This document shows positions 6,363-8,228 of a stretch of 53,591 nt of DNA, in pieces (position 1 is the stretch's first letter; each line of letters starts with the position of its first letter). This stretch comes from Idiomarina sp. (GTDB taxonomy: Bacteria; Pseudomonadota; Gammaproteobacteria; Enterobacterales; Alteromonadaceae). The notes under the pieces are model-generated. The model was given only the letters and a program-made list of their open reading frames with translations, was not told the DNA's origin and did no database searches. The stretch covers positions 1-53,591 of the forward strand of contig JAFIFH010000036.1 in assembly GCA_020832105.1 (NCBI GenBank), written 5' to 3'. A program made the position numbers and the translations under genes.

Positions 6363-6668
6363 ATGACTTCTACTACCGAACTGAATAACAAACAAAAACA
6401 ATATTTGAAAGGCCTGGCACATCCATTGAAACCAGTGGTGCTGATGGGCGGCAACGGTCTTACTGAGGGTGTCGTAGCAGAGATTGAAGGTGCCTTGTCA
6501 CACCACGAGCTGATAAAAGTAAAAGTACCAGCTGATGAACGTGAGATGCGTACCGCAGTCGCCGAAGCGATTTGTCGCGAGACTGGGGCAGTATTGGTAC
6601 AAACTATTGGTAAAACACTAGTGCTTTATCGGCCTGCAACCGAGCCGACCATTCGCTTGCCTCGATAG
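6363..6668 (+). CDS. yhbY: YhbY, CRM-domain ribosome assembly factor
   Basis: A 101-residue protein made of a single CRS1-YhbY (CRM) RNA-binding domain, associated with pre-50S particles in E. coli. It shows the start NNKQKQYLKGLAHPLKPVV, the glycine loop MGGNGLTEGVV and the C-terminal GKTLVLYRP. Length agrees with E. coli YhbY (97). The ATG at 6363 follows AGGAAACGAG. It is divergent from rlmE, the usual arrangement. Confidence 0.93.
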   Translation: MTSTTELNNKQKQYLKGLAHPLKPVVLMGGNGLTEGVVAEIEGALSHHELIKVKVPADEREMRTAVAEAICRETGAVLVQTIGKTLVLYRPATEPTIRLPR

Positions 6669-6767: not shown

Positions 6768-7295
6768 TTAAGTTTGGGCTTCCATCTCGCTTAAACTTTG
6801 CGCCAGATGGTCAAGCACCTGCTCCTTGTGGACAACCCTTTCACCAATCTTAAAGTAGATATCAAGCATCAGCCGCATATGGCGCTCAGACACTTGCGCA
6901 CCATGACTTAACAACAAGGCCTGGCACTCAGAATACGCTTTTAACACCCGTTCCGATTCTTTTTCATTGGCCTGACGCTGCTGCAGGTATGTCTGTGCAC
7001 CCTCACGAATAGACGGATCACGCAACAGTGGCACTTCCAGCTTCTTGTAAGGCGCAAAAAACCAATTCAGCGAAATGCCTCGTTCAAGCAAAATGTTCAC
7101 CAATGTTTTATACGGTATAGTGCCGCGCCGCATCCAGTTCGAGTAGCTTGACGAGCTCACCCCCATCCAACGCAGAATGCCGGCGACTTTGCGTTCTCCG
7201 GAAATACGCCCGAGTCGCTCCATGTACTCTTCCAGCGACACCTCACTATCCTTGCTTTTCGCACTCGCTTGTGTTTTATTTGTCATAAGTTTCAT
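6768..7295 (-). CDS. CI-repressor-type helix-turn-helix protein
   Basis: 175 residues (172 if the ATG at 7286 is used). Residues about 33-82 resemble the phage CI-repressor N-terminal HTH fold: a helix, then GVSSSSYSNWMRRGTIPY as turn and recognition helix, then a helix ending in GISLNWFF, typical of CI-type HTH domains found in phages and marine gammaproteobacteria. The rest is helical (coiled coil likely, about 95-170, rich in Q, E, R), with no visible S24 protease (LexA-like) domain. It is therefore not an obvious SOS-cleavable repressor. It is divergent from a small Ner-type gene, and a phased repeat array starts at its initiation codon, so autoregulation is likely. No good Shine-Dalgarno is visible. 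Its target genes are unknown. Confidence 0.85.
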   Translation of the reverse strand: MKLMTNKTQASAKSKDSEVSLEEYMERLGRISGERKVAGILRWMGVSSSSYSNWMRRGTIPYKTLVNILLERGISLNWFFAPYKKLEVPLLRDPSIREGAQTYLQQRQANEKESERVLKAYSECQALLLSHGAQVSERHMRLMLDIYFKIGERVVHKEQVLDHLAQSLSEMEAQT

Positions 7296-7383
7296 TTGAA
7301 TAATTTTTAATGTTCATTTGAGCTCATTTTGAATTCGTTTGTGAATTAACTTTGAGCTCATGTGTGAACTCCTCTTTGAACTC
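7295..7383. repeat. Array of seven phased TKTGARYTC repeats (operator-like)
   Basis: Seven 9-base units begin at 7295, 7317, 7328, 7340, 7351, 7363 and 7375: TTTGAATAA, TTTGAGCTC, TTTGAATTC, TGTGAATTA, TTTGAGCTC, TGTGAACTC, TTTGAACTC. Spacings are 22, 11, 12, 11, 12 and 12 bases, close to one or two helical turns, and the empty slot at 7306 holds the degenerate TTTAATGTT. Two units extend to the palindrome TGAGCTCA. The array fills the gap between two divergent DNA-binding protein genes, which is what iterated operators for cooperative binding look like. Confidence 0.8.
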
Positions 7384-7385
7384 CT

Positions 7386-7397
7386 ATGTAATTACAT
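7386..7397. promoter_or_regulatory. Perfect 12-bp palindrome before the Ner-type gene
   Basis: ATGTAATTACAT is fully self-complementary and ends 2 bases before the ATG at 7400. It occupies the place of a ribosome-binding site, and no Shine-Dalgarno is visible there. It may be an operator for a dimeric repressor or affect translation. Confidence 0.5.
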
Positions 7398-7399
7398 TA

Positions 7400-7678
7400 A
7401 TGACTAAAGATCAAATAAAAAAAGGATTAGCAACGAAAGGATACGATTTCAGCATGCTGGCTCAGGTTATCTCCAGGAGCCCGTCGCTGCTGTCAAAAGT
7501 TGCCGCAAGAAAGGCGCGCTCGCTGTTGGCCGCGCAAGCGATCGCCACTGCATTGGATCTGTCTGTTGAAGAGGTGTTCCCGGACGTACCTGCGTACCAT
7601 CCAAGCGCCACCGCAGCCGCCGAGTCTAAAGCGGCTCGTCAGGCTGAATTGCAAGCGAAGTTTAATAGTTGCGGATAA
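7400..7678 (+). CDS. Ner/Nlp-type small DNA-binding protein
   Basis: 92 residues from the ATG at 7400; a TTG at 7352 would start inside the repeat array and is rejected. The N-terminal 60 residues read like the Mu Ner / Nlp fold: DQIKKGLATKGYDFSMLAQ as the first helices, SRSPSLLSKVAARKARS as recognition region, then AIATALDLSVEEVFPDVP, the typical AxAxALxxxxxEVFP ending. The C-terminus is alanine-rich. Ner proteins repress early phage promoters; here no other phage genes are present. The gene faces away from the CI-type gene and ends in a strong terminator, so it is a one-gene transcript. Confidence 0.8.
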   Translation: MTKDQIKKGLATKGYDFSMLAQVISRSPSLLSKVAARKARSLLAAQAIATALDLSVEEVFPDVPAYHPSATAAAESKAARQAELQAKFNSCG

Positions 7679-7713
7679 AAAAATGCCAGTCAGTGGTACT
7701 GACTGGCATTTTT
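7677..7713. terminator. Bidirectional terminator between the Ner-type gene and greA
   Basis: A 13-bp perfect stem (7682-7694 with 7698-7710, AATGCCAGTCAGT arm) with a GGT loop. It has TTTTT on the plus side and seven A upstream that become a T run on the minus side. It can serve both the Ner-type gene (+) and greA (-). Confidence 0.93.
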
Positions 7714-7751: not shown

Positions 7752-8228
7752 TTAGAGATACTCAACCTTGACGATCTCATATTCCACTTCACCATTTGGT
7801 GTGGTCACTACCGCACTGTCGTCAACGACTTTGCCTATCATTGAACGTGCAAGTGGTGAGTTAACTGAAATCAGGTTGTTTTTAATATCAGCCTCGTCAT
7901 CACCAACTATTTTGTACAAAACCTCTTGCTCAGTGCTCGTGTTAAATAGTGTTACTGTCACCCCGAACACAATTTTACCGGTATTTGGCATCTTCAACAC
8001 ATCGATGATTTGCGCGTTTGACAGTTTCGCCTCAATTTCCTGAATACGACCTTCACAGAAGCCCTGTTGTTCACGCGCAGCATGGTACTCAGCGTTCTCT
8101 TTCAAATCACCATGTTCACGCGCATCTGCGATCGCCTGAATGATGCGTGGACGATCTTCGTGTTTCAAGCGCTTCAGTTCAGCACGCAGCGACTCAGCGC
8201 CGTTTACTGTCATTGGGATCTGATTCAT
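7752..8228 (-). CDS. greA: Transcription elongation factor GreA
   Basis: 158 residues, the same length as E. coli GreA. The N-terminal coiled coil carries the acidic tip in [18 protein letters not shown] (residues 39-56), which enters the RNA polymerase secondary channel and stimulates cleavage of backtracked RNA. The C-terminal FKBP-like domain ends [12 protein letters not shown]. The ATG at 8228 overlaps the carB stop (ATGA), with AAGAAGG just upstream, so translation is coupled to carB. The order carA-carB-greA is common in gammaproteobacteria. The bidirectional terminator at 7677-7713 ends this unit. Confidence 0.97.

Follow-up and report, generated by a model that had tools for sequence, protein, structure and literature searches.

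Two phage-type regulators in a core chromosomal locus

The locus described here raises the question of what a regular series of short repeats is doing between two divergent phage-type regulatory genes that are surrounded by core genes of a bacterial chromosome. It lies in a contig of 53,591 nucleotides from Idiomarina sp. (JAFIFH010000036.1), which as a whole is called the window below. The gene on the reverse strand (6768..7286) encodes a CI-type regulator with a helix-turn-helix (HTH) domain and a long helical C-terminal part; the HTH domain matches PF07022 with an E-value of 2.2e-8 and 34.7 bits, above the Pfam cut-off of 22. The gene on the forward strand (7400..7678) encodes a protein of 92 amino acids that matches phrog_769 (E-value 3.5e-11). 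Its match to Pfam HTH_35 (E-value 9.9e-5, 22.7 bits) is under the cut-off of 25, and NCBIfam gave no match. By sequence match this protein belongs to the Ner-like family, but it is only distantly Ner-like. Identification of a PF07022 CI protein and a Ner-like phrog_769 protein bears out the description of the pair in the first-pass annotation as two divergent phage-type regulators.

The AlphaFold2 model of the CI protein (mean pLDDT 81.7, pTM 0.44) comprises the HTH and a long helix at residues 91-127. The best named relative of the HTH is the CI protein of phage 186 (2fjr), which was matched by the CI profile (A3) with an E-value of 6e-4 and was also the top fold match of the model, a weak one limited to the HTH (E-value 0.11). 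The window CI differs from it in having a shorter C-terminal part, predicted to be all-helical. Fold searches found no match at an E-value of 0.001 or better for either the CI model or its C-terminal part, and comparison with the named phage collection gave three weak matches. The Ner-type protein was modelled as a single chain with a five-helix HTH and a low-confidence tail (mean pLDDT 73.2, pTM 0.54). The fold search with this model likewise found no match at an E-value of 0.001 or better; the leading matches were SinR and EnrR, and the closest by superposition was EnrR 7f9i (rmsd 1.3, TM 0.78 on the target). The best match among solved structures by sequence (E-value 0.014) was at chance level, and the named phage collection held no Ner match at an E-value of 0.01.

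On the left the pair is flanked by rlmE and yhbY (6363..6668, forward strand; PF01985, E-value 2.8e-31) and on the right by greA (7752..8228, reverse strand; PF03449 and PF01272), all of them core genes. The CI gene is convergent with yhbY and the Ner gene with greA. A weak terminator-like hairpin, readable on both strands, separates the Ner gene from greA (7685..7707); two such hairpins were found against 1.3 expected in shuffles. A prophage context was considered and ruled out, since the pair has core genes on either side, both in the window and in relatives, and no other phage genes were found around it.

A match to the CI protein was present in 22 of 96 related genomes, including 16 of the 17 of the genus (the window's own among them), and a match to the Ner profile in 21 of the 96, including all 17 of the genus, one of which (G002) has it elsewhere only. 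In the named genome collection the Ner alignment found 37 loci from Aliidiomarina, Pseudidiomarina, Idiomarina and one Gammaproteobacteria MAG. A divergent CI frame accompanies 36 of the 37, and at these 36 loci greA was detected in 35 and yhbY in 34. In the Idiomarina group, CI and Ner form a module of the core chromosome. The rows closest to the window are A. sedimenti and A. soli on a tree built from greA, RlmE and YhbY. A literature search found no paper on an Idiomarina repressor at greA.

Two genomes depart from this arrangement. In G002, an Aliidiomarina, yhbY and greA are direct neighbours with about 70 bases between them (L130, 1428-1500), and the pair and the array are both absent; this genome either lost the whole module or never had it. 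In G043, belonging to another genus, a CI gene occupies the yhbY/greA site (L016, 1250-1620), no Ner gene was detected, and neither dyads nor tandem units of the kinds described below were seen by eye upstream of CI.

Ner-like genes also occur at other places in related genomes (L120, L124, L125, L126/L070, L121 and L122), some solitary and some beside phage-type repressors; L070 is a Ner paralogue of A. haloalkalitolerans. Inspection by eye of the stretches printed around these genes showed no TTTGARYTC array. The Ner-like genes of G002 are likewise located away from the yhbY/greA site and lack arrays.

The tandem array and its significance

The first-pass annotation had reported seven units between the two genes, and their starts (7295, 7317, 7328, 7340, 7351, 7363 and 7375) and steps (22, 11, 12, 11, 12 and 12 bases) were reproduced in the sequence. 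Its description of the units as near-identical was generous: the motif TKTGARYTC is exact in five of them, has one mismatch at 7340 and two at 7295. The palindrome TGAGCTCA, said to be present in two units, was found at 7319-7326 and 7353-7360. Units 2 to 7, all on the forward strand, are arranged head to tail and run up to the Ner gene: TTTGAGCTC (unit 2, 7317..7325), TTTGAATTC (unit 3, 7328..7336), TGTGAATTA (unit 4, 7340..7348), TTTGAGCTC again (unit 5, 7351..7359), TGTGAACTC (unit 6, 7363..7371) and TTTGAACTC (unit 7, 7375..7383).

Chains were defined as units joined by steps of 10-13 bases or by doubled steps. The longest exact chain numbered five, compared with a maximum of one in 2000 dinucleotide shuffles of the intergenic stretch, and with up to two mismatches the chain reached seven, compared with a maximum of five. 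Elsewhere in the window, exact or one-mismatch chains never exceeded one, and with two mismatches allowed the longest were a chain of four on the forward strand and one of three on the reverse strand. The array is well beyond chance. TKTGARYTC alone is not rare, with eight exact matches in the window against 3.9 expected; it is the spacing, rather than the frequency of the motif, that is unusual.

A repeat search also revealed an imperfect inverted repeat (7319-7336 / 7343-7360) arising from the half-palindromic units. Blocks 7317-7350 and 7351-7384 share 26 identities over 35 columns, a likeness that is partly expected from the repeats and would fit a duplication of three units.

Conservation of the array in relatives

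The regions of 40 species were compared, comprising 36 named ones, the window and three others (G003, G008 and G009); L070 (a paralogue elsewhere), G043 (no Ner), G002 (no module) and duplicates of named records were left out. Distances from TGA to TGA peaked at 11 (49 versus 4.4 in shuffles), 12 (23 versus 4.2) and 22 bases (34 versus 4.0), with further peaks at 30 (22 versus 3.6) and at 33 and beyond; the 40 species being related, these pooled peaks and their z-scores overstate independence. Taken singly, 30 of the 40 regions were significant at p < 0.05 and 10 were not. The first-pass annotation had made its interpretation depend on conservation of the units in relatives keeping both genes, and such conservation was found: TGA-centred chains in steps of 11-12 bases, or doubled steps, had at least three members in 37 of the 40 regions and at least four in 24. 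Chains of only two were seen in A. haloalkalitolerans, the PBR18 bin and P. sediminum. The positions of TGA and their spacing persist across genera, whereas the letters between them vary. The existence of the array and its retention among relatives are well established.

The number of sites differs among species. Most Aliidiomarina have about four sites and the window has seven; A. maris also has a long form, with six TGA in the same frame of 80 bases. The long form needs two changes on the tree.

Two classes of motif

The seven positions do not form one uniform series, as had been supposed; this was ruled out by the presence of two motif classes, dyads and tandem TKTGARYT units. The site nearest the CI gene, formerly unit 1, sorts as a dyad and so is not a tandem unit. 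It is designated D1 (TTCATTTGAA, 7291..7300), and a second dyad, D2 (TTCATTTGAG, 7313..7322), overlaps tandem unit 2; both belong to the repeat family and have the dyad motif of the relatives. In the window the two read TTCAnnTGAA and TTCAnnTGAG, lie 22 bp apart and flank an A/T-rich gap (7301..7312). A repeat search free of motif assumptions also paired 7286-7299 with 7308-7321, 22 bases apart. The degenerate slot of the first-pass annotation therefore exists as a gap, but it is an A/T-rich stretch between two dyads.

In Aliidiomarina the CI-proximal site is a dyad of the form YTC(A/G)nn(T/C)GAR, with the left TC of D1 invariant and A at +5 in 15 of 17 regions. In the tandem units of the same genus (n = 39) the left half is missing; Y stands at +4 in 38 of them and T at +5 in 30. 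D2 is composite, combining the features of both motifs, with T at +5 in 15 of 16. The dyad GTCRnnTGAC is present in 21 of 23 Pseudidiomarina/Idiomarina regions and in none of 17 from Aliidiomarina.

An extra GTCAnnTGAC dyad was noticed in Pseudidiomarina/Idiomarina (L040-L069, at about 3000-117, e.g. L063), where it overlaps the CI start codon and encodes the first residues, MSND.

Start codons and putative promoters

The CI gene of the window may start at ATG 7286 (MTNKTQ) or at the alternative ATG 7295. The former is common to the window and its nearest relatives and is taken as the probable start on their account, which would put the dyad at 7291-7300 just upstream of the gene. The first unit would touch the start codon, as had been claimed, only with ATG 7295, and not with the start of the nearest relatives. 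A promoter scan found no passing site within the array. The -10 region of the CI gene, on the reverse strand, is proposed by position only to lie in the A/T-rich gap.

For the Ner gene, the candidate -10 element read from the sequence is TATGTAAT (7385..7392, forward strand), which ends 7 bases before the ATG and scored below the threshold of the promoter scan. Judged by spacing, tandem unit 6 may overlap the -35 element of the same promoter. A Shine-Dalgarno-like match of at least 4 precedes only 2 of 40 Ner starts, compared with 35 of 35 for greA and 11 of 35 for yhbY. The Ner start of the window is among those that lack such a match. Together with the closeness of TATGTAAT to the ATG this is suggestive, and only suggestive, of a leaderless Ner transcript; the cI mRNA of phage lambda is leaderless. 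The -10-like letters are absent before the Ner start in part of Pseudidiomarina.

The proposed switch and its alternatives

The intergenic array looks like a control region through which, putatively, both proteins regulate themselves and each other. It is probably, though by no means surely, the composite operator of a domesticated two-repressor switch, in which CI would bind the dyads and Ner the tandem units. The pair would then be a self-contained module of two genes derived from the c/ner region of a Mu-like phage, which the Idiomarina group has retained in its core chromosome. A CI dimer would sit on two dyads that flank the CI promoter and are separated by about two helical turns, thereby limiting its own synthesis; its dyads would be YTCAnnTGAR in Aliidiomarina and GTCAnnTGAC in Pseudidiomarina and Idiomarina. 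Ner would occupy the asymmetric tandem TKTGARYT units, presumably cooperatively, as a row of adjacent molecules, one per unit, that extends from the CI end to the Ner promoter, and occupancy as far as this promoter would turn the Ner gene down. CI and Ner would compete at D2, the site common to both. More units would mean more Ner molecules per operator and hence a response that is steeper or has a lower threshold.

The assignment of motifs to proteins draws on covariation within Aliidiomarina. Where the first dyad carries TGAG, the CI recognition segment has K or R as its second residue in all seven cases; where it carries GAA, another residue is found in all ten. The Ner segment SPSLxSKV is unchanged across the 39 rows compared. 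A dyad that changes with the CI helix, beside a constant Ner segment, points to CI as the protein on the dyads and to Ner as that on the tandem units. The K/R change in CI and the base change in the dyad are one event each on the tree and give a single independent pair, which places this match beyond statistical testing. The joint absence of the pair and the array from G002 also agrees with the preferred reading; the lack of such an array, judged by eye, in Mu and the Mu-like contigs and the empty promoter scan of the array speak against it.

According to the first alternative, the whole lattice belongs to the Ner-type protein: dyads and units are versions of a single TGA half-site, present in one orientation or in both, and CI exerts its effect at other places or by way of protein contact. 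TGA is indeed common to all sites, half-sites in both orientations alternate along the array, and Ner is the better conserved of the two proteins (mean column identity 64% versus 41% for CI). The lack of dyads and units at the CI gene of G043 is also expected if both depend on Ner, and it argues against CI owning the dyads unless the specificity of this CI has changed. The D1 motif nevertheless differs from the tandem units, and the outer bases of the dyads vary with the CI clades, against the constancy of SPSLxSKV in Ner; we regard an array bound by Ner alone as rather unlikely. A second alternative has both proteins competing at every unit with orders of affinity that differ along the array, in the manner of CI and Cro on the lambda operators, which is the classical arrangement. 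D2 bears both motifs, and tandem units such as those with TGAGCTCA are palindromic themselves, yet the motif classes are separate and most tandem units are without a dyad, which makes such general competition distinctly improbable. A third possibility, a relic or structural DNA element that no regulator binds and that duplication has kept, would agree with the failure to find a conserved second target and with the one Aliidiomarina that is without the whole module, but it is very improbable given the TGA positions and spacing kept across genera and the fact that both genes are open in nearly all relatives read.

Spacing and helical phase

The units had been thought to lie on about the same face of the helix. 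At 10.5 bp per turn, however, the phases of the window units are 0, 34, 51, 103, 120, 171 and 223 degrees (R = 0.38), and this drift of 223 degrees rules out a single helical face. The best of four periods tried was 11.4 (R = 0.97). The best pooled periods were 11.0 in Aliidiomarina and 10.6 in Pseudidiomarina/Idiomarina, so the arrays of the relatives are closer to phase. A protein-protein contact that fixes a constant step accounts for the spacing better than a shared face. The cooperative or filament-like binding and the graded switch suggested in the first-pass annotation may apply. It is conceivable, though doubtful, that the Ner-type protein coats the tandem units as a short head-to-tail filament, whose 11.4-base step, exceeding a turn of B-DNA, would wind round or untwist the helix. 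The number of units, about four to seven across species, would in that case set the threshold at which a memory switch of phage origin, inherited vertically and with no phage left to control, responds.

Relationship to known systems

In the c-ner region of phages Mu and D108 a repressor gene and ner are divergent and enclose the operators, and the same layout, with a ner-like gene and putative operators, is found here. D108 has the inverted repeat GTGAGCTAC before ner, presumably its Ner operator, and shares TGAGCT in this repeat with window units 2 and 5. The D108 sites are an inverted pair, whereas window units 2-7 follow head to tail in steps of 11-12 bases. Kukolj, Tolias, Autexier and DuBow (in EMBO J in 1989) are said to have described D108 Ner as a monomer that oligomerises on DNA. 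In Mu, ner is followed by transposition genes, whereas the Ner gene of the window faces greA and the flanks are yhbY and greA. The module further differs from Mu and D108 in its PF07022-type CI repressor, in the lack of any adjoining transposase or phage gene, and in its fixed core-genome site. Inspection by eye found no such tandem array in the Mu c/ner stretch.

The nearest viral relatives of the Ner-type protein (13 loci, 38-42% identity) are in contigs with a divergent repressor, and in most of the 13 phage genes follow that look Mu-like, as identified by eye; no TTTGARYTC series was seen by eye in these Mu-like contigs. A precedent for Ner as a recruited chromosomal regulator is SfsB (Nlp), a homologue from Enterobacteriaceae that is reported to be 68% identical to Ner and to act on maltose genes (PMC8987985). 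The module of the window is only distantly Ner-like in comparison, and it has retained a divergent CI partner and an operator array as well. Because of the viral Ner relatives in Mu-like contigs and the SfsB precedent, we interpret the module as a domesticated control region of the c/ner type that has outlived its phage. The module offers a natural series of operators at one site in dozens of sequenced species, in which the units number about four to seven and both genes, one or neither may be present. Such a series allows tests of the way in which the number and spacing of operators tune a switch made of two repressors, and of the benefit that a host draws from a phage switch in the absence of the phage.

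Other candidate sites in the genomes

A search of the genomes for further copies of the array, as suggested by the first-pass annotation, returned matches outside the module, but none of them conserved. In 18 genomes there were 8 matches versus 3 for the reversed control; two of these were the module, and four of the other six were in long frames. In 19 genomes there were 17 matches versus 6 for the control, 6 of them the module, and the 11 non-module matches were divided between 7 in frames and 4 outside them. The single D1 dyad was found at 64 places in 5 genomes (50 for the control). Of 30 of these places that were read, 22 were in frames, including two in the module, and 8 were not; no neighbour gene was shared among the proteins compared. 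The genomes searched thus contained no conserved second target of array or dyad; sites with fewer or more degenerate units could remain.

In the window's own genome, three TTGAR units in exact 11-base steps precede a tRNA-Arg gene (G000:C47:119490-119516, L080). This triple, one of the four matches outside frames, was not seen before that tRNA gene in the 10 loci read from 9 other genomes, and it may be due to chance or may be a second target.

One further irregularity concerns the Ner gene of G003 (L006, at about 1999), where the conserved ATG follows an A run and does not share the reading frame of the remaining gene. This may reflect a broken start, the use of another start codon, or a sequencing slip.
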